Below, piece after piece: positions 2,972 to 21,610 of a stretch of DNA of 44,593 nt (position 1 is the stretch's first letter; each line of letters opens with the position of its first letter). The notes under the pieces are model-generated. The model was given only the letters and a program-made list of their open reading frames with translations. It searched no databases and was not told the DNA's origin. The DNA comes from a virus, in the IMG/VR virus record IMGVR_UViG_3300050821_002307, positions 1 to 44,593 of that record; one strand, 5' to 3'. The position numbers and the translations under genes were made by a program.

Positions 2972-3877
2972 ATGCCCTTTCAAAAGACGATCAACAACAC
3001 TCAGGCGCCCGGCGTCGCTGGCGATTTCGCAAGCACCAACCCGTTTTCGTCTGTACTCGCGGGCCCGGGTGCGCTCGTCGCGCCGGCCGGCGGCTTGGTC
3101 GTGGGGAACTTCGCTTGGGTCGGCCCTGCCGGTCAAGTGTCGCAGTCCTATCAGGCCGGTTGGCAGATTGGATTTCTGGGCCGCAATGAGCAAGCGCTGA
3201 TTACCGAATTCTTGGGCGAATCCACGTTGGTTGTCCCCGAGGGTTTCATGGTCACGCTGTTCGACGGCGGCGATTTCTGGGCGTACTTTGCCGACGGTGC
3301 AACCGCCTTGGCGACGGTGTACGCCGACGAAGATACGGGCGCCCCGCAGATGCAATCCACGAATTCGTTCACGGGTTCAGTGGGCTTCGCGGGTACCGCG
3401 TCGTTCGCAACCAATGTCATGACCGTGGTTACTCAGACTGCCGGCAGCATCATCGAAGTCGGCGACGTCGTGACATCCGCGACCGTTGCGAGCGGCACGA
3501 CCGTTACCGCGCTGTTGTCCGGTACTCCGGGCGCAGTCGGCAGCACATATTCGCTCAGCACTTCGCCGGGCACCATTGTGACGCAGGCGGCCACGACCGC
3601 AAGTTCCACGTTGAACGTGACAGCGGTCGCCAATGGCGGCCTATCGATCGGCGATGTCATTTCCGGAAGCGGCGTGACGGCCGGCACGCAGATTGCCAGT
3701 TTCGGCACGGGAACCGGCGGCGTGGGCACATACGGGTTGCTCATCCCGGGCGGCGTTCCGTTCCACACTGCGTCTGAAACGATCACGGGGCCGTCGAACA
3801 TTTCGAGCGGTTTCACGGTCGGACCGATCACCCTGGCGGGCGCGGGCGTTGCCAAGATCAGCGCGAACGTAACCTAA
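2972..3877 (+). CDS. Structural cement (capsid decoration) protein, gp24-like, with internal Gly/Thr-rich repeats
   Basis: 301 residues. The N-terminal 125 residues match the cement family: M-P-F-Q start, [21 protein letters not shown], then [10 protein letters not shown] and Y-A-D-E-D-T-G. The usual short C-terminal strand (G-F-T-V-G, then G-V-A-K-I-S) is found only at residues 280-300, so about 130 residues have been inserted in a surface loop. The insert holds two copies of the Gly/Thr-rich domain described separately. Cement proteins bind the capsid lattice and stabilise it after expansion. An AGGAAC ribosome site precedes the ATG; the major capsid gene follows. Confidence 0.8.
3395..3787 (+). 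repeat. Two Gly/Thr-rich domain copies inside the cement protein
   Basis: Residues 142-208 and 212-272 of the cement protein carry the pattern T-x-x-x-x-G-x-L-x-x-G-D-V-(x)-S-x-x-x-V-x-x-G-T, followed in copy 2 by [10 protein letters not shown]. The same pattern lies inside the DUF4054 adaptor and the DUF3383 sheath. It is probably a beta-rich surface domain; its function is unknown to me. Confidence 0.7.
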
Positions 3878-3913
3878 TTTTTGATTTGAACTGAAGTACA
3901 GGAAACAGCAAAC

Positions 3914-4948
3914 ATGACCCGCATTGCAATCGACCACGCCGACCTTGGCCGCCGTTATGGAATTCATTTCATGTCGGGGCTTATGCAGGAAGCGCGCGGC
4001 ATGGAACTCATGAACCGCTCAATCGGGTTCGACGCACAGCCGACGCTTATCACTGCGGCGAATGCGGGCATCCCGTCGCTGTTCACGACCTACGTGGACC
4101 CGGCGATTATCGAAGTGCTCGTGAGCCCGACCAAGGCCGCCGAACTGTACGGCGAAACCAAAAAGGGTACTTGGGTCGACGATACCGCCATGTTCTTGAT
4201 GGCCGAGCGTACCGGCGAAGTCGCCAGCTACGGCGATTTTTCGCAGGACGGAATGTCGAACAGCAATGAGAATTTCCCTCAGCGGCAGTCGTACCACTAC
4301 CAAACGAACACTCGTTGGGGTGAGCGCGAACTCGCGCGGGCGGCAGCGGCCAAGATTGACAAGGCCAACCAAGTCAACATGGCGTCGGCCCTGGCACTGA
4401 AAAAATTCCAGAATTTGACGTACCTGTACGGTGTGGCCGGATTGCAGAACTACGGCGGAACGAACGACCCGTCGCTTCCGAACCCGATCGCCGTGACCGG
4501 GACATGGTTTGGCGCGGCCGGCGATTTCATCTACGCCGACGTGCTGCGCCTAGTCCAGCAAATCGTCGCGCAGGGCAACGGCTTGATTGATGCCGAAACC
4601 CCGTACACGCTCGGCATATCGCCCGGCAACGTGATGAATTTCAACAACACGAACCTGTACAACGTGAACGTGTACACGCTCATCAAGACGAATTTCCCCA
4701 ACATCAAGATTGTGACTGTGCCTGAATTCGCCATCAACGGCGGCGGCGGCGCGGGCGGAACGGAGTTCGTACAGTTGATCGCGGACAACGTCGAGGGTCA
4801 GCGGACCGTCGAGGCCGGGTTTACTGAAAAGATGCGCGCCCACGCGATCGTGACCAAGACGAGCTCGTGGGAGCAGAAAAAGAGCCAAGGCTCATGGGGA
4901 ACTATCGTCTATCGGCCCGTTTTTGTGAGTGCAATGGTGGGGGCGTAA
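3914..4948 (+). CDS. Major capsid protein (DUF2184 type, HK97 fold expected)
   Basis: 344 residues, the usual length for DUF2184 major capsid proteins. Visible family features are F-D-A-Q-P near residue 40, the central Y-G-E-T-K-K-G-T-W segment, G-D-F-S-Q-D-G, Q-R-Q-S-Y-H-Y-Q-T, Y-G-V-A-G-L-Q-N-Y-G and the C-terminal G-S-W-G-T-I-V-Y-R-P. It is placed after scaffold and cement genes with an AGGAAA ribosome site just upstream. It forms the hexamers and pentamers of the head. The stop is 2 nt from the stop of an HNH gene on the other strand. Confidence 0.9.
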   Translation: MTRIAIDHADLGRRYGIHFMSGLMQEARGMELMNRSIGFDAQPTLITAANAGIPSLFTTYVDPAIIEVLVSPTKAAELYGETKKGTWVDDTAMFLMAERTGEVASYGDFSQDGMSNSNENFPQRQSYHYQTNTRWGERELARAAAAKIDKANQVNMASALALKKFQNLTYLYGVAGLQNYGGTNDPSLPNPIAVTGTWFGAAGDFIYADVLRLVQQIVAQGNGLIDAETPYTLGISPGNVMNFNNTNLYNVNVYTLIKTNFPNIKIVTVPEFAINGGGGAGGTEFVQLIADNVEGQRTVEAGFTEKMRAHAIVTKTSSWEQKKSQGSWGTIVYRPVFVSAMVGA

Positions 4949-4950
4949 GC

Positions 4951-5517
4951 CTACGGCATATCCGGCCACCGACGATTACCTTTGCGTAAATTGTCGGTGG
5001 CCGTTTCGATTTGAAGATTTCCCGCCCAGTGAAGTCCGCACACGAGCGGATTCTTAAGGGGCACAATGTGATCTACGTGAACGTCAAGGCCCTCACGGCG
5101 CAATTGCAACGCCTCCTCGTGTATCTTCAGGCAGTCTGCGTAAACGTACCATTTCGGCGTAGCTTTTCGCTCAATTGCGCGGCGGCGGGCATTGCACTCT
5201 CTGACGGCCGCCGGGTTGCGCCGCTGCCAATCTCGTACGGTTTGAATTTCTCGGGTCGGGTCGGCGGCATATCGTTTTCGTTTATTTTCACAGATACGTT
5301 CGCGCGCCGCGGCGTACCGTTCCGAGTGATAGCCCGGTCGGCTCTTGCGTGTCTTGCCGTCTACCGCGAGGCATACCGTACAGTTCGTAGTACTTACCAA
5401 TCGCGGCGCTATATGTCCGTTTTTGCAAGGCCAACCGGTTTCATAGTGCCGGCGACCGGCGGCGCGCGCCGCCTCGCGCAACGGCCCCGCGTGTTGCTGA
5501 CGTTTGGTGAGTGCCAT
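4951..5517 (-). CDS. HNH homing-type endonuclease inserted in the head operon
   Basis: 188 residues. An N-terminal zinc-finger motif (Cys31, His35, Cys46, Cys49 in G-W-P-C-K-N-G-H ... C-T-V-C) precedes a basic linker and a C-terminal HNH site: V-D-H-I-V-P-L-K (Asp149, His150), G-L-H-W-A-G-N-L-Q, and N-L-R-K-G-N near the end. It runs against the late operon, between capsid and second cement gene, as expected for a mobile intron-less homing gene. Its ATG shares the palindrome CATG (5515-5518) with the start of the plus-strand neighbour. The frame stays open upstream to about 6072, but that part is a shadow of the neighbour. An upstream ATG at 5532 is an alternative start. Confidence 0.8.
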   Translation of the reverse strand: MALTKRQQHAGPLREAARAAGRRHYETGWPCKNGHIAPRLVSTTNCTVCLAVDGKTRKSRPGYHSERYAAARERICENKRKRYAADPTREIQTVRDWQRRNPAAVRECNARRRAIERKATPKWYVYADCLKIHEEALQLRREGLDVHVDHIVPLKNPLVCGLHWAGNLQIETATDNLRKGNRRWPDMP

Positions 5518-6112
5518 GTCTAATTGTGGCATAAGCCGACCATTGCCGCAACTATTTGGCGCGTATGAAGGGGCGTTCGCATCCGCCCCCCTCCTACAGA
5601 ATCTCGAACTGCGGGCGCCGTTCGCGTCGGTCACGGGCGGCCCGGGCGCCCCGCGGTCAAATACCCCCGGGACGATCCAAGGCCGTTTCGGTTGGCTGAA
5701 CTCGGCCACGGGTCTCGTGAACAATACTCGCGTCGCGTCCGATGACGTGGCCGGCGTGGTCGTCCCGTTCCGCAACATGAATGCGGCCAATGGCGGCGTT
5801 GTGGGCGGCCCTCGGGGCCTCGCCGGGCCGCGCGCCTCGTGGTCGTGGCAGTTTCTTGACCCGACCGTCGCGCCGTGTGGCGGCCTCCGTGTGCGCCCGG
5901 GCCTCGTGGTCACGCTGCATGCCCGCGGTAATTTTTGGATGAGATTCGCGGCCGGCGCGTTGTACGGCGACCACGTGTACGCGTCACTCGTGGACGGGCA
6001 AGCCATATCGGGGCCGGCCGCGAATACCGAATTGACGCCGTTTCGGGTATGCTCAATTGCTGCGCCGGGCAACCTGGCGATTGTTTCGAGTAGTGCGATT
6101 TTTACACCCTAG
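5516..6112 (+). CDS. Second cement-like (gp24-like) structural protein
   Basis: 198 residues from ATG 5516, with GGTGA 5 nt upstream; an earlier TTG at 5504 is less likely. It resembles the first cement protein in layout: G-R-F-G-W near residue 60, then V-R-P-G-L-V-V-T-L-H-A-R-G-N-F-W and V-Y-A-S-L-V-D-G, matching [16 protein letters not shown] and V-Y-A-D-E-D-T-G of the protein at 2972. I infer a diverged paralogue that may decorate another site of the head. No Gly/Thr-rich insert is present here. Confidence 0.6.
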   Translation: MSNCGISRPLPQLFGAYEGAFASAPLLQNLELRAPFASVTGGPGAPRSNTPGTIQGRFGWLNSATGLVNNTRVASDDVAGVVVPFRNMNAANGGVVGGPRGLAGPRASWSWQFLDPTVAPCGGLRVRPGLVVTLHARGNFWMRFAAGALYGDHVYASLVDGQAISGPAANTELTPFRVCSIAAPGNLAIVSSSAIFTP

Positions 6113-6127
6113 ATAGGAGTTTGGACC

Positions 6128-6661
6128 ATGGCAGAAGCGAAACGAGAACCGGCGATAACGCCGACACAAATCGAGACGCCGAAACGCGTCACGGGCGAAA
6201 CCGTGATTATTGGCTGCAAGCTACCGTCAGGCATTACGCTTGAGGTTGGCTTACAGACGCTCGAAAAAACCCCGGACGGGAAGTACTTCACCATGGTGAA
6301 GCGTCTCGACAATTACGAGCGGATCGTGCTTAAAGGCTGGCACCACCACAATACGACCGGATTGCAAATGCCCGCCGGCGTGAATTCCGATCGGCCGTTT
6401 CTCAACTACGGCGTGAGCAAAGCCGCATGGGATCAATGGAAGTCTGAGCACGCCAAGTCATGGCTACTCAAGAATGAAATTCTGTTCGAAGCGGCCAATG
6501 CGGCCGACGCGCAAGTTAAAGCCATGGATGCCGCGCAGGCGCCGGCCATTCTCGCGCCGATCAAGCTCGTCAAAAACAAGGACGGCGAAGAGCGGCCCGC
6601 GATTGACGGCAAGCCGATCAAGGACGTCGAAACGGCCGATTTCAAAAAGGAACGAGGCTAA
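6128..6661 (+). CDS. Hypothetical structural-region protein
   Basis: 177 residues with a good ribosome site (AGGAG 5' of the ATG). The first half is beta-like (G-E-T-V-I-I-G-C-K-L-P-S-G, then K-R-L-D-N-Y-E-R-I-V-L-K-G-W-H-H-H); the second is helical and charged. I do not recognise the family. It lies between cement paralogue and head-tail adaptor, with 3 nt to the next gene, so it is probably a head or neck component. Confidence 0.65.
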   Translation: MAEAKREPAITPTQIETPKRVTGETVIIGCKLPSGITLEVGLQTLEKTPDGKYFTMVKRLDNYERIVLKGWHHHNTTGLQMPAGVNSDRPFLNYGVSKAAWDQWKSEHAKSWLLKNEILFEAANAADAQVKAMDAAQAPAILAPIKLVKNKDGEERPAIDGKPIKDVETADFKKERG

Positions 6662-6664
6662 GCC

Positions 6665-7414
6665 ATGCCCGTGAATCCGTGTACGACTGTCCAACCCGTG
6701 TTCGGCGTCGTCAGCTATTCGGCGGCCGAATTCTTGGCGTCGTATCCGGAATTCACGGGCATCAATTTCGCGACGCCGCAGTCCATCGCAAATGATTTCG
6801 TGGGCGCGACGTTCCTATTAAACAATACGTGCTGTTCGCGCGTGCGCGACGCGAATCAACGCATGTTTTTGCTGTACCTACTGACGGCCCATATAGCGAC
6901 GATTTTCCAGGGCGTCAATGACGGTGGCGTGGGATCGCCGGCATTCACAGGCGCGGGGTCGATTGCCGGGACGGTACTGACCGTCACGCAGGCGACGCAG
7001 GGTACGCTTGTCGTCGGCTCGGCGCTGTACGACGGTCCGGCGGGTACAATCGTGCCTGGCACGACCATTGCCAGCCTCGGTACAGGCACGGGCGGCATCG
7101 GGACGTACAACCTCAACGTATCGCAAACGGTCGCGTCTGAGCCGTTCATAGTGCCTGGCGTGCCGAATGTGTCGCCGCCCCTCGGCATCGTGGGCCGGAT
7201 CAATCAGGCGGCCGAGGGCGATGTATCGGTATCCAGCGAATGGCAAGCCCCGCCAAACGCGAATCAGGCGTATTTCATCCAGACGAAATACGGCGCACAA
7301 TACTATACTTTAACAGCGAAGTACCGTACTATGATCGCGATACCGGCACCGCCGGATGCGTACGGGGTTGGATATGGCGCGCCGTTTGGACCTTTCGGGC
7401 CGGGTTTTCGGTAA
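6665..7414 (+). CDS. Head-tail adaptor (DUF4054) with an internal Gly/Thr-rich insertion
   Basis: 249 residues. Residues 17-86 show the DUF4054 N-terminal half (F-L-A-S-Y-P-E-F, A-N-D-F-V-G-A-T, Y-L-L-T-A-H-I-A) and residues 171-240 the second half (G-I-V-G-R-I-N-Q-A-A-E-G-D-V-S-V-S, Y-F-I-Q-T-K-Y-G, Y-R-T-M). A domain of about 65 residues splits them. DUF4054 proteins form the connector ring under the portal. The stop lies inside the start region of the next, endonuclease-like gene. Confidence 0.8.
   Translation: MPVNPCTTVQPVFGVVSYSAAEFLASYPEFTGINFATPQSIANDFVGATFLLNNTCCSRVRDANQRMFLLYLLTAHIATIFQGVNDGGVGSPAFTGAGSIAGTVLTVTQATQGTLVVGSALYDGPAGTIVPGTTIASLGTGTGGIGTYNLNVSQTVASEPFIVPGVPNVSPPLGIVGRINQAAEGDVSVSSEWQAPPNANQAYFIQTKYGAQYYTLTAKYRTMIAIPAPPDAYGVGYGAPFGPFGPGFR
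6953..7150 (+). repeat. Gly/Thr-rich domain copy inside the DUF4054 adaptor
   Basis: Residues 97-162: G-A-G-S-I-A-G-T-V-L-T-V-T, then G-T-L-V-V-G-S-A-L, V-P-G-T-T-I-A-S-L-G-T-G-T-G-G-I-G-T-Y and S-Q-T-V-A-S. It interrupts an otherwise continuous domain, so it is an insertion and not a fusion at an end. Confidence 0.7.
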
Positions 7415-7940
7415 ATGGACGGCGATAGAACGCAGCCCCGACTCAGGGTATTGGAAATGCCGATGCACTTGCGGCATAGAAAATTTTATTCCGGTGTCCA
7501 ATTTGACGACGGGCAAAAGCACGGCATGCGTAAAGTGCGGCCATAAAGGCGACGGGAACGGAGCGCGACATGCGGCGTTACGTCGTAATGGCGAGCACGC
7601 CGAACGTAGCCGCACGAACGAATATTTACAGGCGGCAGCGTGCAAGAGTCGCGCAAAAATAGCCGGTCTAGCGTTTGGTTTTGCGTCAGTGTCTGAATGC
7701 GCGCAATGGATTCGGGCGAATACTCCGACAGTCTGTCCCGTACTAGGAATCCCGTTAATCAGGGGAATTGGCGCGCGGCATGGATTTCGCAATAACGCCC
7801 CCAGTGTAGATAGGGTAGACTCTAAAAATGGGTATGTTTCCGGGAACATGCAGGTAATTAGCTTTCGGGCCAACGCCATGAAAAACGACGCGACACAAGA
7901 TGAGTTAGAACGATTCGCGCGGTGGGTTCTCCGTGGCTAG
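7374..7940 (+). CDS. Small homing-endonuclease-like protein (zinc ribbon plus S-V-D-R motif)
   Basis: 188 residues from ATG 7374 (a frame-compatible ATG at 7356 also exists). The N-terminus has the form D-L-S-G-R-V-F-G-K-W-T, then W-K-C-R-C-T-C-G and C-V-K-C-G, the zinc ribbon that often precedes phage HNH domains. The C-terminal half has C-P-V-L-G-I-P-L and P-S-V-D-R-V-D-S-K-N-G-Y, a pattern found in phage endonuclease-like ORFs and again at 26692. It overlaps the adaptor stop and the next gene start, as mobile genes wedged into a late operon do. Nuclease activity is inferred. Confidence 0.65.
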   Translation: MARRLDLSGRVFGKWTAIERSPDSGYWKCRCTCGIENFIPVSNLTTGKSTACVKCGHKGDGNGARHAALRRNGEHAERSRTNEYLQAAACKSRAKIAGLAFGFASVSECAQWIRANTPTVCPVLGIPLIRGIGARHGFRNNAPSVDRVDSKNGYVSGNMQVISFRANAMKNDATQDELERFARWVLRG

Positions 7941-8445
7941 CCGCAATCACGTCGTGGGCGGCAAGAAACTTGCCCTCGCGCTGAAATCTATCGAGCACAA
8001 AATCACGAACGCGGGCGTATTGCGCATGGGGTTTTTAGAGGGCGCGAAGTACCCCGAGCGTACGAACGCCCGATTCCTAAAGGCCGTCGGCAGCAACGCG
8101 ACGCCTACGGTTCAGCCCGCGCTGTCGATTGCGCAAGTCGCGTTTTGGAATGAGTACGGCACGACCCGCGCGCCCGCGCGCCCGGCGTTCCGGACGACGA
8201 TTCAGAAGAATTCGAAAACGTGGGGCGACCGTCTCGGCAAGGCCGTAGTCGCCATGAATTATGACGGGCAAAAAGCGCTCGGCCTCCTCGGGCAATCCAT
8301 GCGGGACGATCTTGAGAGTGAAATTGCGCAATGGACGAGCCCGGGTAATGCGGCCCTCACTATCAAAATCAAGGGTTTCGATAAGCCCCTCGTCGACTCG
8401 GGCGACATGCAGCGGGCCCCTGACTACGAGGTTAAGGCGAAATGA
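7933..8445 (+). CDS. Neck/minor tail protein (HK97 gp10-like candidate)
   Basis: 170 residues from GTG 7933, inside the end of the preceding gene. The segment V-A-F-W-N-E-Y-G-T-T-R-A-P-A-R-P-A-F is typical of gp10-like and virion-morphogenesis neck proteins, followed by a helical region and an L-V-D-S-G-D-M-Q end. These proteins close the connector or join the tail. It ends with an ATGA overlap onto the next gene. Confidence 0.65.
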   Translation: MASRNHVVGGKKLALALKSIEHKITNAGVLRMGFLEGAKYPERTNARFLKAVGSNATPTVQPALSIAQVAFWNEYGTTRAPARPAFRTTIQKNSKTWGDRLGKAVVAMNYDGQKALGLLGQSMRDDLESEIAQWTSPGNAALTIKIKGFDKPLVDSGDMQRAPDYEVKAK

Positions 8446-8849
8446 ACCTGCACAGTATCGTCCGCGGCGCGATCAATTCGGTAAATGCCGACCGGCCCGC
8501 GTTGTTCCTGCGGAGTACGGGCAACACCGTCAACGCCGATTTCTCGCAGACGCCGAGCTATGCCGCGGGCGTGGCCGTGCGCATCCAGATACAGCCCCTC
8601 GGAAGAGAGGAGTTACGGCACGTCGAGAAATTGAATTTGCAAGGCACGTTCCGTACGATTTTCATGTACGGCGACACTCAGCAAATTGTGCGAGTCACGC
8701 AGCAAGGCGGCGACCTATTGCAGTTTGCCCCGTTCCAAGGGCAGGCCGTACAAAACTGGAAAGTTGTCGGCCCTGTCTCGGGCGCGTGGAACGTCGAGAA
8801 TGGCGGCTGGACGAAACTTGTCGTCTGCCTCCAAACGGACACGCCATGA
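8442..8849 (+). CDS. Head closure / neck protein candidate
   Basis: 135 residues, ATGA overlap at both ends. Beta-rich sequence with G-R-E-E-L-R-H-V-E-K-L-N, F-R-T-I-F-M-Y-G and W-T-K-L-V-V-C near the end, which resembles small head-tail joining proteins in DUF3383-type myophages. No catalytic motif. Assignment rests mainly on place between gp10-like and terminator-like genes. Confidence 0.55.
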   Translation: MNLHSIVRGAINSVNADRPALFLRSTGNTVNADFSQTPSYAAGVAVRIQIQPLGREELRHVEKLNLQGTFRTIFMYGDTQQIVRVTQQGGDLLQFAPFQGQAVQNWKVVGPVSGAWNVENGGWTKLVVCLQTDTP

Positions 8850-9409
8850 CAGCCCCCGTCGCAACCGTTGAAAATACGCTGACCGATGTTTATACGGTGC
8901 TCGGTGCGTTCATAGTATCCATGCTCGGGCTGAACCCCGGGCAAGTCATCCAGGGCTACCCGAATCGTACGGCCATGCCCTTGGGTCCGTTCGTGGCTAT
9001 GTCCGGCATGCTCAAGAAACGGCTACGGACCAACGTCGACAATTACCAGTCCACGACCGACCCGGCCCCCGCGCCCGGCCCCGTGACATCCGAGCAAGGG
9101 CAGCAAGTCACGATACAGCTTGACTGCTACGGGCCAGCATCCTCGGATTGGTCGGACATCCTGTCGACGTTGCTACGCGACAACGTGGGCTGTTTGGCCC
9201 TCGCGCCCAAGTGCCAGCCGCTATACGCTGACGATCCGGTGCGCGGGCCGCTGACGAATGCCGAACTCCAATATGAGGATCGCTGGATAATTCAATGCCA
9301 AATCCAGTACAATCCGATTACGACTACGGCCCAAGAGTACGCGACTGTGCTTGGCCCCGTGGGCATTACTGACGTTACGCCGGCGGGATTCGCTCCCGCG
9401 GCCCCATAG
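8846..9409 (+). CDS. Tail/neck terminator-like protein
   Basis: 187 residues from ATG 8846, overlapping the previous stop (ATGA). A longer frame upstream is a shadow. The sequence has a helical N-terminus and then Q-V-T-I-Q-L-D-C-Y-G-P-A-S-S-D-W-S-D-I and a C-terminal W-I-I-Q-C-Q-I-Q-Y-N-P, the pattern of gp12-like neck terminator proteins that end the tail tube. The sheath gene follows 16 nt later after a GTAGGA ribosome site. Confidence 0.6.
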   Translation: MTAPVATVENTLTDVYTVLGAFIVSMLGLNPGQVIQGYPNRTAMPLGPFVAMSGMLKKRLRTNVDNYQSTTDPAPAPGPVTSEQGQQVTIQLDCYGPASSDWSDILSTLLRDNVGCLALAPKCQPLYADDPVRGPLTNAELQYEDRWIIQCQIQYNPITTTAQEYATVLGPVGITDVTPAGFAPAAP

Positions 9410-9425
9410 GTAGGACATAAACGAC

Positions 9426-11150
9426 ATGACAGCATCAATTCCGGCCGCCCGACTTGCCGACGTTATCCCTGGCGTATTAGGTGCCGGCGGCAACCCGCTG
9501 AGCTTGAACTCTGTCTATGTTACTTCCGACCCCTCGATACCGTACGGCACCGCGCAAGCGTTCGCGTCGGATGTCGACGTGTCGGATTGGTTCGGGCCGA
9601 ACGCGCCGGAAACCGTTCTTGCCAACGTCTATTTTGCCGGGTACATCAATTGCACGGCGCTTCCGAGCACGCTGTATTTTGCACAGTTCAATACGGCCCC
9701 GATCGGCGCGTATCTGCGCGGCGGCAGTCTCGCCGCCCTGACACTCACGCAGTTGCAAGCACTCTCCGGAACTCTCGCGTTGACGGTCGACGGCGTGCTT
9801 GCCACGTCGGCAGCAATCAATCTGTCGGGCGCTACCAGTTTCACGAACGCCGCTACGTTGCTACAGGCCGGCCTACAGACGACCGGCAATGTATTTTCCG
9901 GCACGGCATCGCAGGCCGCGGGCGTGGTCACGATCGCGTCAACTGTTTCGGGATCGCTTGCCGTCGGCGACGTCTTGAACGGAACGGGCGTCGAACCGAA
10001 CAGCAATATTCTGTCGTTCGGGACGTATACCGTGGTCGCTGGTACGGGCACCGTCAACGTCGGCACGTCAGGCACGGTAAGTTCAGGCACGGCAACTGTC
10101 ACGGTACTCCCGACTGTTGCGTACGACGCGCTACGCGAGGCATTTGTGATTTCCTCAGCAACGACCGGCGTCGGCTCCTCGATTGGTTTCCCGGCCACTG
10201 GCGCGTTGTCTACGGGGCTGGATTTGACGGCCGCCGAGGGGGCCGTACTGTCGCAGGGCGCGGCAGCGAATACGCCGGCCGGCGTCATGAATCAGGTTGT
10301 TGCGGCGACGCAGAATTGGGCAACGTTTATGACCGTGACCGAGCAAACGTTGTCGGTTAAGGAAGCATTTGCCGCGTGGGTCCAGACGACCAATCAGCGG
10401 TATCTGTACGTGTGTCAGGATTCGGACGCGACGCCGACCACGAGCCCGAACGCCACGGGGTCGTTCGGCAACATCGTCAACGCCGCGAACGATACGGGCG
10501 TTATGCCTGTGTACGATATCAGCGGGTCCGGCGTGATCGCGGCATTCCAGACGGCGATCGCGGCATCGATTAATTTCAATCAACAGAATGGCCGCACTAC
10601 GGCGGCGTTCCGCGGACAGGCCGGGCTTGTGGCTCAAGTCACGAACGAAACGGTTTTCAACAACCTGCTTGCCAACGGATACAACTGTTATGCGTCGTTC
10701 GCGACCGCAGATCAACAATTCACGCAGAATCAGCCCGGGCAGATTTCGGGCGCGTTCCGCTGGTTCGACACGTACATCAATCAGATTTTCTTGAACTCGC
10801 AGTTTCAGCTTGCGATCATGACATTGCTTGCATCCGTGCCGGCCGTGCCGTACGTGACCCGCGGGTACAACCTGATTCGCTCGGCACTCCTCGGGCCGAT
10901 CAAGCAGGGGTTGAATTTCGGCAGCATCGTCGCGGGCGTGTCGCTGTCTGCGGCGCAGTCGGCGATATTGAACAACGCGACCGGCGACCCGAGCGCAACG
11001 GCCACGATTCAGAACACGGGGTGGTATCTGCAAATCCTCGATCCGGGCGCGATCGTGCGCGGCGGGCGCGGTTCGCCGACGATCAATTTCTATTACACCG
11101 ACGGGGGCAGCGTTCAGCAGATATCGATGTCCTCGGTCGACGTTCTATAA
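9426..11150 (+). CDS. Contractile tail sheath protein (DUF3383) with an insertion
   Basis: 574 residues. Family features: I-P-A-A-R-L-A-D-V at the start, A-F-A-S-D-V-D-V-S-D-W-F-G (residues 45-57), A-Y-L-R-G-G, then V-A-Y-D-A-L-R-E-A-F-V-I-S-S-A-T-T-G, N-W-A-T-F, and the C-terminal G-W-Y-L-Q-I and P-T-I-N-F-Y-Y-T-D-G-G-S-V. The split between the L-Q-A-G-L helix and V-A-Y-D is filled by about 70 extra residues. DUF3383 proteins form the outer, contracting layer of the tail. The tube gene follows directly, with an AGCGGAG-type ribosome site. Confidence 0.85.
   Translation: MTASIPAARLADVIPGVLGAGGNPLSLNSVYVTSDPSIPYGTAQAFASDVDVSDWFGPNAPETVLANVYFAGYINCTALPSTLYFAQFNTAPIGAYLRGGSLAALTLTQLQALSGTLALTVDGVLATSAAINLSGATSFTNAATLLQAGLQTTGNVFSGTASQAAGVVTIASTVSGSLAVGDVLNGTGVEPNSNILSFGTYTVVAGTGTVNVGTSGTVSSGTATVTVLPTVAYDALREAFVISSATTGVGSSIGFPATGALSTGLDLTAAEGAVLSQGAAANTPAGVMNQVVAATQNWATFMTVTEQTLSVKEAFAAWVQTTNQRYLYVCQDSDATPTTSPNATGSFGNIVNAANDTGVMPVYDISGSGVIAAFQTAIAASINFNQQNGRTTAAFRGQAGLVAQVTNETVFNNLLANGYNCYASFATADQQFTQNQPGQISGAFRWFDTYINQIFLNSQFQLAIMTLLASVPAVPYVTRGYNLIRSALLGPIKQGLNFGSIVAGVSLSAAQSAILNNATGDPSATATIQNTGWYLQILDPGAIVRGGRGSPTINFYYTDGGSVQQISMSSVDVL
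9891..10109 (+). repeat. Gly/Thr-rich domain copy inside the sheath protein
   Basis: Residues 156-228: G-V-V-T-I-A-S-T-V-S-G-S-L-A-V-G-D-V-L-N-G-T-G-V, S-N-I-L-S-F-G-T-Y-T-V and G-T-V-S-S-G-T-A-T-V. It is less regular than the copies in the cement and adaptor proteins and sits inside the DUF3383 domain. Confidence 0.6.
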
Positions 11151-15349: not shown

Positions 15350-16287
15350 ATACGCTATATACGGTTAAGAATCTCAGAGTGACTTTTACCCTGTCCAATT
15401 CCAACGCGGTTTTTCCCGGTACTACCGCAAATCAGCTACAGGTGTCAGGACTGCGCATGTCCGCCGTGATTAAGGGCGCGGGCCTGCCGGCGTTCCCCGA
15501 GGCATCGCTTAGAATCTACGGCATGGCGCAGCAAGATATGAACGCATTGGCCGTAGTGCAAGTGCTCGTCGGTAAGCCGCAGTACACGCGGAACATCGTA
15601 CAAATTGAGGCCGACAGTGGCAATGGGTTTTCGTTCGTGTTCTCGGGCCAAATCATTCAAGCCGGCCCCGACTACTCTAACGCCCCCGATGTGTGTCTAT
15701 ACGTGCAATCCGTGTCACTCGGCCTCGACCAATTGGCGCCCGCGAAACCGATTTCGTATCCTGGCGTGGCCAACGTGGCCGACATCATAGGCGGCATTGC
15801 GTCAGGCATGGGCCTCGCGTTCGAAAATGACGGCGTGACCGGCACTCTGACGAACGCGTACTATTCCGGCACGCTGGCGGATCAATTGCGCACCGTCTGT
15901 AAGGACGCCGGCATTTACTACGCGATTGAACCGGCTACGCCGAATTTGCTGGTCATCTCGCCGGCCGGCGTGTCCCGTCAAAACCTGACGGCATTCACGC
16001 TGACGCCCTCGTCAGGATTGGTCGGATACCCTGAAGTGCTCGGCAATGGCTACCTCAATGTGCGATCGATTTTCAATCCAGCATATCGCATGAATGGGCC
16101 GATCACGATTCAGGGGAGTGACGTGGTTATTGACGCATCGTTGCCGAAAACGCTGAACACGCTGGCGGATGGCAATTGGCTGATAGGGCCGCTGACGCAC
16201 ACGCTTGAGTCGCAGAAACCGGGCGGGGCGTGGTTTACCGATATGAAACTTTACCCCGAGAACGCGCCCCCGCCCCCCGTATCATGA
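15346..16287 (+). CDS. Baseplate hub protein
   Basis: 313 residues. Pattern of hub proteins of the gp27/gpD/Mu gp44 group: N-terminal beta domain, P-A-K-P-I-S-Y-P-G-V-A-N-V-A-D-I-I, L-A-D-Q-L-R-T-V-C-K-D-A-G-I-Y-Y, then L-I-G-P-L-T-H-T-L-E-S-Q-K-P-G-G near the end. The hub forms the central cylinder below the tube and holds the spike, encoded by the next gene with an ATGA overlap. Confidence 0.7.
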   Translation: MNTLYTVKNLRVTFTLSNSNAVFPGTTANQLQVSGLRMSAVIKGAGLPAFPEASLRIYGMAQQDMNALAVVQVLVGKPQYTRNIVQIEADSGNGFSFVFSGQIIQAGPDYSNAPDVCLYVQSVSLGLDQLAPAKPISYPGVANVADIIGGIASGMGLAFENDGVTGTLTNAYYSGTLADQLRTVCKDAGIYYAIEPATPNLLVISPAGVSRQNLTAFTLTPSSGLVGYPEVLGNGYLNVRSIFNPAYRMNGPITIQGSDVVIDASLPKTLNTLADGNWLIGPLTHTLESQKPGGAWFTDMKLYPENAPPPPVS

Positions 16288-18044
16288 GCAACGTAGGTCA
16301 AGCCAATCCGTTTAGCGATGCGAGCGAGTACAACACGCTTGATTTCGTAATCGCGCGCGCAACCGAGAAAATGCAAACCGTATCGATTGTCGCCGTCAAG
16401 GCCGTCGACACGGTAAAACTCACGGTCGACGTTCAAGTGCTCGTCAACCTCGTCACGGGGGCCAATATCTCGGTACCGCACGGTGTGATCGCGGCACGGC
16501 CGTATTTCCGCGCGCAGGGCGGCACGTCGGGAATAATCCTCGACCCCGTTGCTAGCGACATTGGCGTAATGGTATTCGCGTCGCGCGATTCCTCAGCCGT
16601 GATCGCAGCCAAGGGGCTAGCGAACCCGGGTAGCCAACGCCGATTCTCGTGGTCGGATGGCGTCTATTTCGGCGGCATCCTCAACGCCGCGCCGACGCAG
16701 TACCTTAAGTTCGCGTCCGGCGGCGTCACGTTGCTGTCCCCGACCGCCGTCAACATACAGTCGCCCGCGAACACCGTCACGGGGCCGGCCACGGTTACGG
16801 GTGCGACCACGCTACAGGCTACGCTGGCCGTGACCGGCACGAGCACGTTGACGGGCGCCGTAAGTACCCCCGGCGGTATAACGGTCGGCAGCCCCACGGG
16901 CGGCACCGCAGCGCCGGGCACAATCAATGCTGCGGGGCTATTCGTCAACGGCGTCCCTGTCAGTACGGGCGGGGGCGGTTCGGGGACTGTGACGAGTGTC
17001 GGCATATCGACGGGCGGCGTCGGCGTGGTCGTTGGCGGCGGTCCGATCACGACGGCGGGCACGTTGATCGTGGACTTGTCCTCGACCGCGTACGCCGCCC
17101 TCGCGCTCGCTGTTACGGCCTTACAGTCGATTTCCATAGCCACGGGTACCGGACTGACCGGCGGCCCGCTGACGGCGTCAGGCACGACCGTAGCCCTGTC
17201 AGCGGCGACTATCGCGGCGTTACTGCCGGCCTCGCCTGTACAGGGCGACATTGTGTATTACAACGGCGCCGCGTGGGCCAATCTCGCGCCGGGCACTGCG
17301 GGTAATGTTTTGACTACGGGCGGCGCGGGGGCGAATCCTTCGTGGGCGCCGGGCGGCGGGGGTAGTACGCCAGTGCCCGGCACGATTCCTGATTTAGTGT
17401 TTTGGTTTGACGGCAACGCCCCGCTAATGACGACGGGCGCGCACCTCGAATCATTGCAAAATTTATGCCCTTGGATGCCCGCCTACAGCCCGTTTTTGAC
17501 CGGCGGCGCAAAGGGCGCAACTCGATCGGCAACAACGCTGAACAGTAAAAATTTAATGACATTTCCCGGCAGCGCGGATGCAGCCTATTTGATGCCCGGG
17601 GCCGGGCCGATAATGCCCGAATTTACGGGATTCGTCGTATTCAATGCCGGCGCAGCATCTACGATGAGTTTTTGTTGTGGCGCTTCAAGCGCATCGTTAG
17701 AGTTTGACTATACATCCGGCGGCGCGTTGAATTTGACAGCTTCATTCGTGGCCGGCATCGGCAATAGTACAACAACCGTAGCCCCCGGAACAGCATTTCA
17801 AGGTAACGCCACGTACGACGGCGCGACGGGAAATTATGCGTTTCGTATTTCGCAAGCGGCGGCCGGAAGCGGAACAAATTCGCAAAGTATCACGAGCGGA
17901 TCGGGCGGCATCGGGTTCGACCCGCAGATAAACGGGCAATATTTAAACGGCATGCTTGCGGAGTTGATTATATACAATCGTGTCTTATCCCCGACGGAGA
18001 TTGCAAACGTCGAGGCATATCTACACACGAAATGGGGCGTATGA
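16284..18044 (+). CDS. Baseplate spike (Gp138-like) fused to beta-helix/fibre repeats and a LamG/lectin-like tip
   Basis: 586 residues from ATG 16284 (ATGA overlap). Residues about 24-130 resemble the Gp138 N-terminal OB domain (V-S-I-V-A-V-K-A-V, I-L-D-P-V, G-V-M-V-F-A-S-R-D); 145-230 form a repeat-rich stem; 235-360 are fibre-type (G-T-V-T-S-V, G-D-I-V-Y-Y-N-G-A-A-W, L-T-T-G-G-A-G-A-N-P-S-W-A-P); 368-586 form a jelly-roll lectin-like domain (F-W-F-D-G, T-G-F-V-V-F, Y-D-G-A-T-G-N, I-Y-N-R-V-L-S, Y-L-H-T-K-W). A spike ending in a lectin domain could bind a surface sugar. The DNA from about 17390 is poorer in GC than the rest, so the tip may be acquired. Confidence 0.7.
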   Translation: MSNVGQANPFSDASEYNTLDFVIARATEKMQTVSIVAVKAVDTVKLTVDVQVLVNLVTGANISVPHGVIAARPYFRAQGGTSGIILDPVASDIGVMVFASRDSSAVIAAKGLANPGSQRRFSWSDGVYFGGILNAAPTQYLKFASGGVTLLSPTAVNIQSPANTVTGPATVTGATTLQATLAVTGTSTLTGAVSTPGGITVGSPTGGTAAPGTINAAGLFVNGVPVSTGGGGSGTVTSVGISTGGVGVVVGGGPITTAGTLIVDLSSTAYAALALAVTALQSISIATGTGLTGGPLTASGTTVALSAATIAALLPASPVQGDIVYYNGAAWANLAPGTAGNVLTTGGAGANPSWAPGGGGSTPVPGTIPDLVFWFDGNAPLMTTGAHLESLQNLCPWMPAYSPFLTGGAKGATRSATTLNSKNLMTFPGSADAAYLMPGAGPIMPEFTGFVVFNAGAASTMSFCCGASSASLEFDYTSGGALNLTASFVAGIGNSTTTVAPGTAFQGNATYDGATGNYAFRISQAAAGSGTNSQSITSGSGGIGFDPQINGQYLNGMLAELIIYNRVLSPTEIANVEAYLHTKWGV

Positions 18045-18416: not shown

Positions 18417-19676
18417 ATGGACACGACCAACGTACCGCAGCCGGTATTTACGCCCACGGGGCTAGTCCTGCCGCAAGAGGCTGCTATCCTGGCGGGCGTC
18501 CAGCAAGATTATAACGCCGCATTCGGAGGTAATCTCAACCCGCAGTTAACGAGCCCGCAGGGGCAGCTATGTTCGAGCACCGCGGCTATTATCGCCAACG
18601 GTAATACGGTATTCGCCACGTTTGTCAGTCAAGTCGACCCGGATACAGCCACGGGATTTATGCAGGACGCAATCGGCCGTATCTATTTCATGAACCGCAA
18701 GCCGGCCGTTCCGACGACCGTCAACCTGCAATGTGTCGGCGCGTTCGGCACGCCGATTCCCGTCGGCGCCCTCGCGCAGGATACGAGCGGCAATATCTAC
18801 TCGTGTACGCAGGCAGGCGTGATTCCTGTCGGCGGCACGATCACGCTGGCATTTGCGAACGTCGTAGCCGGGCCGATTGCATGCCCGATGAATACCGTCA
18901 CAATCATTTACAAAGCGATCAACGGGTGGGAGTCGGTCAACAATTCTGCGGACGGCGTGATAGGCGCCAACGTCGAGTCGCCGGCCGCGTTCGAGTATCG
19001 GCGGCAACAATCTGTCGGCATCAACGCGCAGGGATCAATCCCGGCCATCTACGCGGCGTGTTTTAGCGTCGACAACGTTATCGATGTTTTCGTGACGCAA
19101 AACAACACGGGATCAATCATATCGAGCGCAATCAACGGCAACCCGAATTCGACGAGCTATCCCGTGGCCGCTCGCTCGGTCTACGTGGCCGTAACGGGCG
19201 GCGCGGCGCAGAACGTGGCAAACGCTATCTGGCGCGCGACGAACATTGGCGCCGCGTATCAGACGGCGGCGGGCGGCGCAGGCGCTACGCTCGTTTCCGA
19301 GACTGTGACAGACAATAGCGGCTATGCAATCCCGGTACCGGCGTATACCGTGAATTACATCAACCCGGCCCCAACCCCGATATTTTTCGCGGTCACGCTG
19401 GCGGCCTCGGCATTGCTGCCGGCAAATATCCATTCGCTCGTACAACAAGCGATCATCGCGCAATTCACAGGGCAGATACCCGGCAGCCTGCGCGAACGTA
19501 TTGGGTCACAAGTTCTCGCGTCTCGGTACTTTGGCCCGGTTCAGGCGATCGGCAATGAAGTTTCAATTTTAACGATCACGATAGGATTTAACTCGGGCGT
19601 AGGGCAAGCATCGCTGCAAATGGGCATCGATCAAGAGCCGACAATATCGGCTATCAATATCGCGGTAGCGCCGTAA
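18417..19676 (+). CDS. Baseplate J-like protein
   Basis: 419 residues. Baseplate_J pattern: F-T-P-T-G-L-V-L-P at the start, D-Y-N-A-A-F-G-G-N-L-N, D-A-I-G-R-I-Y-F, G-W-E-S-V-N-N, E-S-P-A-A-F-E-Y-R-R-Q-Q-S-V, and a C-terminal domain with I-G-S-Q-V-L-A-S-R. It forms the wedge ring that starts sheath contraction. The stop overlaps the next ATG (TAATG). Confidence 0.85.
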   Translation: MDTTNVPQPVFTPTGLVLPQEAAILAGVQQDYNAAFGGNLNPQLTSPQGQLCSSTAAIIANGNTVFATFVSQVDPDTATGFMQDAIGRIYFMNRKPAVPTTVNLQCVGAFGTPIPVGALAQDTSGNIYSCTQAGVIPVGGTITLAFANVVAGPIACPMNTVTIIYKAINGWESVNNSADGVIGANVESPAAFEYRRQQSVGINAQGSIPAIYAACFSVDNVIDVFVTQNNTGSIISSAINGNPNSTSYPVAARSVYVAVTGGAAQNVANAIWRATNIGAAYQTAAGGAGATLVSETVTDNSGYAIPVPAYTVNYINPAPTPIFFAVTLAASALLPANIHSLVQQAIIAQFTGQIPGSLRERIGSQVLASRYFGPVQAIGNEVSILTITIGFNSGVGQASLQMGIDQEPTISAINIAVAP

Positions 19677-21610
19677 TGAGCATTCCGTACATAGAGGGCC
19701 AAAGCGTTTCGAATCCGCCCGTAGCGTCATTTACGCTCGGCTCGATGTCGGCGTCAAATACTAGCCTAACGGCATTTGTTACCGCGCTATCGAATCTGGC
19801 TCTATGCGTTATAGTACATACCCATAACAGTACGTCCGTCATTGGGCCGATGTATATCACGTCGGTAACGAGCCCTAATTTATCTTGGGGTTCCGCGCCG
19901 ATTTTTCGCGTAGAAAGTAATAACGTAAATAATGGGCTATCAATTGAATTTTGGGCCGCACCGATTAGCGCCCCTCTGTCAGGAGAAATAGTTACAGTTA
20001 CGTCAAATGCTCCCGTTGACGCAGTGGGTTTCGCATTATACGGCGTCGTTGGCGCCGGATTATTTGACCTGGGGGGCGGAACGTTGCCTGTCGGTGTGGT
20101 GCCCGCCGGAACTTCGCCGCTGACCGTCCCGAGCTATAATACGACCGACGCCGACACTCTAGTGGTAGCGTTAAGCGCGGTGCAAAGTGGCGCGACGCAA
20201 ACCGCGCCTACAGGGTTTTCTAACCTACCGTATCAACCGTTCGGCTCCGGGCTTAATCTCGCTATTGCCACGCCCGCGACTTACGCACCCGGCACGATCG
20301 TAACGGGCGGTTCAATTGTATCCGCTCTGTCAGGTACGTCGGGCGTCGCCAATACCGCGTTGCTTGCATTTGGCATACAGGGAATTATCGCTACGACTGT
20401 TCCCGACGTTGTGGGCGATACTGATACAGCAGCCCGAGCGGCAATCGCCGCTGCGAGTCTCATCGTGGGCACTGTCACGTCGATATCGGGCGGAACGCCG
20501 GGCGTAGTGGCGGCACAGTCGCCCGTAGGCGGCACGCCAGTCTCTAGCGGTAGTGCTGTTGATTTGGTCGAATATGAGGGCGACGTCGTTCCGAATATTA
20601 TAGACACGTCGCTTGCGGTTGTTGCACCGGGCATTCTCGCGGCTGCGGGTCTCGTGGTCGGTATCGTATCGTATCAAGCCAGTGGCGTCATAATTGCCGG
20701 CAATGTCATATCGCAAAGCCCCACGGCGGGATCGTTCGTATCTGCGGGATCGGCTGTCAACCTCGTCGTATCTTCGGGCCTGCCGGCACTCACTGTGCCC
20801 GACTTATTCGGCCTATCACGAACAGACGCCATCAATGCGCTAATTGCCGTCGGTCTCGTACCGGGCGCGATCGGCTCGGCCCCGTCACAGTTCGTTCCCC
20901 CGGGCGAAGTACAGGCACAAAATCCTAGCGCGGGAATCGCCGTAGCAGTCGGGTCAATCGTTAGTTTTGTGCTATCCCTCGGAACGCCGGCCGTTGGCAC
21001 GTTATTCGATTTCGAAGCGACCGTGATTTCGCAATACGCGAATAGCCCGACGATTTTGCAGCTTGTACAAAATCTGAATCAGTATGTTGACCAATCTACG
21101 AACTTCGCCAATTTTTTCAATTTCGTATGGAATGTCGACACGGCTGTTGATTTCGGCCTCGACATATGGGGGAAGATTGTCGGCGTGTCGCGGTTACTGC
21201 AAATACCGAACACGACCGACTATGTAGGGTTCGACAATGGCACACGGTCGCCGCCCGATTGGCAAAGCATGGGAAGCGACCAACCGCCATATAACGATCC
21301 GCCCGTAGGCGGTGCGCTATATACGGGGTTTAACGCCACGTCGACATATCTCCTCGGTAATGACGCGTATCGGCAATTGATTCTTGCTAAGGCATTCGCC
21401 AATATTTGCGCAACGACTGCGCCGGCCATTAACACGATTTTGCAAAACCTCTACGGTCCCGGCACGGCGTGGGTTCTCAATACAGGGCCGATGGCGATTT
21501 CCTATAATTTGACGTTCACGCCCTCCGCAATTCAGCTTGCAATTTTGCAGCAATCGGGCGTCATACCCACGCCGCCGGGCGTTTCTGTTACCATCAATAC
21601 CAACGTCTAG
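19676..21610 (+). CDS. Baseplate protein (DUF2612) with three PASTA domains
   Basis: 644 residues. 1-235: a beta-rich domain (C-V-I-V-H-T-H, A-L-Y-G-V-V-G-A-G-L-F, D-A-D-T-L-V-V-A-L) that I do not recognise. 240-300, 303-366 and 372-434: three PASTA-like units, each starting V-P-(D/N)-(V/I/L), with a helix, G-x-V or G-I-V, then Q-S-P or Q-N-P and G-S-x-V. 441-644: DUF2612 (Y-A-N-S-P-T-I-L-Q-L, D-I-W-G-K-I-V-G-V-S-R, Y-R-Q-L-I-L-A-K, A-I-N-T-I-L-Q-N-L-Y). DUF2612 proteins follow gpJ in this type of baseplate; PASTA units bind peptidoglycan in other proteins. The N-terminal half is less GC-rich than its neighbours. Confidence 0.75.
   Translation: MSIPYIEGQSVSNPPVASFTLGSMSASNTSLTAFVTALSNLALCVIVHTHNSTSVIGPMYITSVTSPNLSWGSAPIFRVESNNVNNGLSIEFWAAPISAPLSGEIVTVTSNAPVDAVGFALYGVVGAGLFDLGGGTLPVGVVPAGTSPLTVPSYNTTDADTLVVALSAVQSGATQTAPTGFSNLPYQPFGSGLNLAIATPATYAPGTIVTGGSIVSALSGTSGVANTALLAFGIQGIIATTVPDVVGDTDTAARAAIAAASLIVGTVTSISGGTPGVVAAQSPVGGTPVSSGSAVDLVEYEGDVVPNIIDTSLAVVAPGILAAAGLVVGIVSYQASGVIIAGNVISQSPTAGSFVSAGSAVNLVVSSGLPALTVPDLFGLSRTDAINALIAVGLVPGAIGSAPSQFVPPGEVQAQNPSAGIAVAVGSIVSFVLSLGTPAVGTLFDFEATVISQYANSPTILQLVQNLNQYVDQSTNFANFFNFVWNVDTAVDFGLDIWGKIVGVSRLLQIPNTTDYVGFDNGTRSPPDWQSMGSDQPPYNDPPVGGALYTGFNATSTYLLGNDAYRQLILAKAFANICATTAPAINTILQNLYGPGTAWVLNTGPMAISYNLTFTPSAIQLAILQQSGVIPTPPGVSVTINTNV

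Follow-up and report, generated by a model that had tools for sequence, protein, structure and literature searches.

Phage virions are known to carry promiscuous accessory domains, among them immunoglobulin (Ig)-like domains and carbohydrate-binding modules (CBMs), and domain shuffling is known as well (PMC10684548). Many tailed phages bear Ig-like domains (Fraser et al. 2006, cited in PMC10684548; phage Douge, PMC13033339), small accessory beta domains on capsid and tail proteins that jump between unrelated virion proteins, and the CBMs of lactococcal 936 phages (PMC6669499) are accessory domains of neck passage and other virion proteins. Here, we describe a module of about 65 residues that occurs four times in a 44,593-nucleotide viral stretch (positions 1 to 44,593 of IMG/VR record IMGVR_UViG_3300050821_002307; hereafter, the window): twice in tandem in a cement (capsid decoration) protein, once in a DUF4054 head-tail adaptor, and once in a DUF3383 tail sheath protein. 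Profile searches confirm, at the level of sequence, that the four segments form one homologous family. The domain family itself appears not to have been described; the kind to which it belongs, a promiscuous virion accessory domain, is already known.

A wide profile built from 83 diverse modules recovers exactly four copies in the window, all on the plus strand, with E-values from 3e-13 to 3e-22. The first two lie in the cement protein, at 3386-3589 (residues 139 to 206; E = 3e-13) and 3581-3772 (residues 204 to 267; E = 5e-19). The third, at 6944-7147, occupies residues 94 to 161 of the adaptor and splits its DUF4054 domain (E = 3e-22), and the fourth, at 9894-10097, occupies residues 157 to 224 of the sheath protein, between a helix at 139-151 and a strand at 230 (E = 1e-15). 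Each copy was also found by a leave-one-out profile built solely from the window's remaining three (E = 6e-5 and 7e-8 for the first and second cement copies, 5e-10 for the adaptor, and 2e-7 for the sheath), the next-ranking open reading frame (ORF) of the window scoring E of about 0.2. A candidate for a fifth copy (17742-17882; E = 0.19) was not confirmed by the wide profile. Both kinds of profile, with clean controls, thus bear out the four copies that the preliminary description had listed in these three proteins.

Translation yields the three carriers as first described. The cement protein (2972-3877, plus strand, 301 residues) matches PF23982 (E = 5e-18), PF22758 (E = 4e-12), and PHROG 2122; it is of the type of E217 gp24, Pam3 gp6, and XM1 gp53, and its AlphaFold2 model matches the solved decoration proteins of E217, Pa193, XM1, Pam3, and T1 with Z scores of 12 to 13. 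The adaptor (6665-7414, plus strand, 249 residues) matches PF13262 (E = 1.5e-5) and PHROG 302 (E = 6e-15). The sheath protein (9426-11150, plus strand, 574 residues) matches PF11863 (E = 1.5e-111) and PHROG 205, and its model matches the Pa193 and E217 sheaths with Z scores of 32 to 35.

The modules are rich in Thr, Gly, Ser, and Val (T, 21%; G, 17%; S, 11%), with 3.3% charged residues and 0.1% Trp. So strong a bias could in principle produce chance or convergent matches between low-complexity Gly/Thr-rich stretches, an explanation that we find barely credible and that the data contradict. Pairwise scores among the four segments exceed all or nearly all of 2,000 shuffles. Furthermore, the wide profile detects 486 domains in the ORFs of the fetched loci and none in the same ORFs when reversed or locally shuffled, so that low-complexity composition is not the cause of the matches. 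Conservation is position specific (L12, V14, G25, I39, G50, and Y52), and the cement and sheath copies share a confident common structural model, described below.

Could the segments instead be an ancestral part of the carrier families, lost in some lineages? The main insertion site is common to several sheath clades and many cement proteins, as such a history would predict. However, the PDB sequences of the Pa193 (gp32) and E217 (gp31) sheaths pair with the window's sheath over residues 9-151 and 229/230-538 and have nothing opposite 152-229, and most relatives in GenBank also lack the module, aligning with a gap at it or only as far as the insert. In all three families, members without the module are joined at the same place (the sheaths of E217, Pa193, and L013, the adaptors of L026 and L031, and the cement protein of L030; L numbers are our handles for the fetched loci). 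In the L013 sheath, which is about 69% identical to that of the window, the helix leads almost directly to the next strand; this phage has no sheath copy but one copy in another reading frame. Likewise, L026 encodes a DUF4054 protein without the module, while its cement and sheath proteins have one, and the insert is absent from the adaptors of L029 to L036 and from the cement proteins of L030, L034, and L039. The sheath family carries zero, one, or two copies at the main site, behind the 139-151 helix, and the L062 sheath has its module at a second site, between FGNYS and CLEYQMAQ. With carriers that are otherwise unrelated, a shared ancestral segment is contradicted and very improbable.

On sequence comparison, then, the modules are insertions. 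The DUF4054 match in the adaptor is confined to the C-terminal part behind the insert (residues 176 to 217) and the DUF3383 match in the sheath falls into two stretches, a pattern that agrees with the Pa193 and E217 alignments and with the earlier claim that both copies split a recognized domain. The cement copies are located before the last strand, again as proposed. They are real but not separate, since the two are contiguous and, in the model, the last strand of copy 1 is continuous with the first of copy 2 (strand 202-221). Loop insertion on capsid, neck, and tail proteins therefore stands, members without the insert being common in the carrier families.

AlphaFold2 models of the cement and sheath proteins were predicted with 43 and 35 sequences, respectively. 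The block confidence (predicted local distance difference test) is about 88 to 96 for module 1, about 84 to 95 for module 2, and 70 to 96 for the sheath module. The two cement copies and the sheath copy place their predicted strands at the same profile positions, and so the segments in these two proteins do not appear to fold differently. Barrel comparisons rest on cement module 1, nearly the whole of which superposes on EF1A/EF-Tu entries in the PDB over 69 to 70 residues, with a root mean square deviation (rmsd) of 2.4 to 2.8 and a Z score of about 6 to 6.5, a value that we use for the fold level only because such scores can reflect a common arrangement. The matched ranges correspond to domain II. 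At a moderate Z score, the model thus resembles a beta-barrel of the EF-Tu domain II (translation-protein) type. This likeness is one of fold only: none of 20 modules matches the corresponding Pfam families at E up to 1, the modules stand in no GTPase context, and they are rich in Thr and Gly. Among solved structures, the leading candidate for a relative is chain 1 (124 residues) of the Arthrobacter phage Bridgette structure 8eci, whose residues 10 to 77 align structurally with module 1 (64 residues; rmsd, 2.4; 31% identity; Z score, 6.8), although module sequence profiles do not recover it.

How does the module differ from the described systems? None of the 20 modules matches a Pfam Ig or Big family at E up to 1, and the model resembles the EF-Tu domain II barrel. 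In the fold comparison, Ig, OB, and lectin families are not prominent and barrel-type matches rank, a result still compatible with any of these three folds. The module is also found within adaptor, terminator, head closure, and sheath proteins. Glycan binding has been shown for the Douge domains, whereas the module is known here from sequence and models. The 936-phage CBMs are described as sugar binding (PMC6669499).

On its own, the module has no significant match in Pfam, NCBIfam, or PDB sequences, only scattered weak ones, and PDB sequence searches retrieve no relative. PHROGs hold it only within two profiles of whole long proteins, 38233 (tail fiber; matching 15 of the 20 modules) and 21413 (unknown; 19 of 20), with no separate domain described. 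A literature search with the consensus string returned no paper, nor did we find a description of this domain family in the literature searched, which leaves out subscription papers. Searches of GenBank phages and plasmids with single modules (tblastn) returned almost nothing, a result that does not mean absence because the low-complexity filter probably masks the query.

The family is nevertheless widespread. Loci were sampled by a codon pattern for GTGTGGxGTY, the best-conserved stretch, so that the sample is biased toward copies with that motif; the pattern occurs in at least 120 stretches of viral contigs and in 108 of bacterial genomes from several phyla. Soil strains whose genomes carry it include Paraburkholderia elongata 5N and Rhizobium freirei PRF 81. 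An iterated search of all fetched loci yielded 518 copies, which are spread over 352 ORFs; 123 of these ORFs hold two or more, and once the module was masked, 342 of the carriers fell into 91 groups. Besides cement, adaptor, and sheath proteins, the carriers include the neck terminator (PHROG 1876), the head closure protein Hc3, an Ad3-like neck protein, a baseplate wedge protein, head decoration and major tail proteins, several other virion structural proteins, tail fibers, and an esterase. On bacterial contigs, they include PilY1 and secreted LamG/Ig, Big_9, and Por-sorted proteins. The carriers are thus unrelated, as the preliminary description held, but its count of three falls short: the module is carried by no fewer than ten virion protein families, as well as by some bacterial surface proteins. 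In a library of predicted structures, a 62-residue match (55% identity, 1.2 Å) lies in an HK97 capsid protein. The distribution is patchy: when 150 genomes from a single bacterial family were compared, 4 carried the module (one of the four being the genome on which the search was centered). Two of the loci, L123 and L101, have very long ORFs with scattered modules. A PilY1-like pilus-tip protein (L274:157-5229, minus strand) contains four in tandem, and the module thus reaches past phages. Among predicted structures, the cement model also has matches in collagen-like proteins of a giant virus, Indivirus (BFVD A0A1V0SCQ2 and A0A1V0SDM6).

Several observations indicate that the module spreads among unrelated virion proteins, as had been suspected. 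In L158, the cement gene and the sheath gene each contain a two-module cassette, and the DNA of the two cassettes is about 74% identical over about 400 bp. This similarity stops close to the edges of the modules, and the 90-bp flanks are unrelated (42% and 34% identity); at the sequence level, this shows that a cassette moved between the genes or that two were captured from one source. On a tree of 205 modules, grouping is mainly by carrier protein, with 33 carrier changes versus 118 in shuffles, and the neighbors that do cross carriers are mostly cement and sheath copies. Together with the breadth of carriers, these repeated jumps argue for transfer. The window's own copies are 60 to 71% identical to each other in DNA, and therefore no recent duplication has occurred in this genome. 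The ratio of nonsynonymous to synonymous substitution rates (dN/dS) between orthologous copies is 0.06 to 0.34 in most pairs and 0.59 in one, with dS near saturation in several, and the module is often less constrained than the carrier backbone. Such purifying selection suggests that the module has a function; no sign of positive selection or of an arms race was seen in the orthologous module pairs.

We propose, with a probability of about one-half, that the module is a mobile, compact barrel domain exchanged among virion loops and used for multivalent display, most likely weak adhesion. Recombination would let phages gain and trade it, either as a single copy or as a tandem cassette; it would enter permissive loops of virion proteins and, on the virion, act as a multivalent surface-display unit that most likely adheres weakly to polymers of the host surface or the environment, much as Ig-like domains do on other phages. 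In E217, the sheath comprises 204 subunits and the trimeric cement protein is present in 180 copies (PMC10329688); if the present phage is alike, each of its particles would display several hundred modules. Exposure on the assembled virion, multivalency, and adhesion are inferred, and the roles first suggested for the module, adhesion to mucus or glycans or shielding, likewise draw on analogy with phage Ig-like domains. Weak adhesion is our preferred reading on two grounds: in Douge, host glycans are bound by Ig-like domains of the capsid and tail (PMC13033339), and the present module is also part of tail fibers, the esterase, the PilY1 pilus-tip protein, and secreted LamG/Ig proteins. Four points weigh against the proposal. 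A fixed sugar site is not evident, since glycines and hydrophobic residues make up most of the near-invariant positions, the Tyr of GTY is the sole near-invariant aromatic, and the surface has no conserved patch of aromatic or charged residues. Nor does the module match any sugar-binding family in Pfam. The adaptor and terminator are low-copy neck proteins, poorly suited to multivalent adhesion, and the Z score of module 1 against EF-Tu is moderate for a small barrel.

Two other accounts remain serious rivals to display. In one, which we consider rather unlikely, the module reinforces the particle by adding contacts between neighboring cement, neck, or sheath subunits and binds nothing outside. 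Several of its carriers (cement and head decoration proteins, adaptor, head closure protein, terminator, and sheath) do sit where stability counts, the observed purifying selection fits, and the continuous strand across tandem copies could give a rigid rod; yet close relatives manage without the module in the sheath (L013) or the adaptor (L026), the sheath family has two distinct insertion sites, and tail fibers and bacterial secreted proteins need no such contacts. In the other, which seems unlikely to us, the module passively fills, spaces, or shields: it would be soluble and uncharged, fold readily, be tolerated in loops, and itself bind little or nothing, and recombination (perhaps between the GC-rich GGN/ACN repeats that it contains) would spread it. 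The neutral Thr/Gly-rich composition, the lack of a conserved binding patch, the patchy distribution in that bacterial family, gain and loss inside one clade, and the relaxed constraint relative to the backbone in many pairs would all suit a filler, whereas dN/dS values far below 1 in orthologous copies speak against one, as does the persistence of the module in a given carrier from phage to phage.

More broadly, and tentatively, since we hold it to be doubtful as a whole, the unnamed barrel domain may represent a second promiscuous system of virion decoration alongside Ig-like domains, its tandem cassettes moving between genes of one genome and being shared between phage particles and the adhesins or pilus tips of bacteria, so that phages could alter the surface of head, neck, and tail with the carriers unchanged. 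Even the contractile sheath and the neck adaptor, proteins commonly regarded as under tight constraint, accommodate this mobile domain. A domain so widespread, yet missing from Pfam, NCBIfam, and PDB sequences, can mislead phage annotation, because it causes cement, adaptor, and sheath proteins to match the two PHROGs labeled tail fiber or unknown. With the profile, the close relatives without the module, and the two-gene cassette in hand, both its mode of spread and its role become directly testable.

The window also encodes a second, paralogous cement-family protein (5522-6112, plus strand; PF23982, E = 5e-9; PF22758, E = 4e-7), which is conserved in relatives and serves as an internal control: the module is absent from it and from its close orthologues. 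Antisense to this gene lies an HNH/endonuclease VII-like gene (4951-6072, minus strand; PHROG 1035, E = 1e-17), and another is found at 7356-7940 (plus strand; PHROG 3322, E = 5e-25). Both are inside the structural gene cluster and are possible free-standing homing endonucleases. Among the baseplate genes, the protein encoded at 16230-18044 has a weak C-terminal LamG/concanavalin-like domain (E = 1e-4, below the Pfam cutoff). Finally, a DUF2612 baseplate-type protein (19676-21610) has three PASTA domains N-terminal to its DUF2612 part (Pfam E = 6e-28), a stretch that matches PknB-type PASTA chains (E = 8e-10). PASTA repeats are usually peptidoglycan binding, and these constitute another accessory domain on the same virion.

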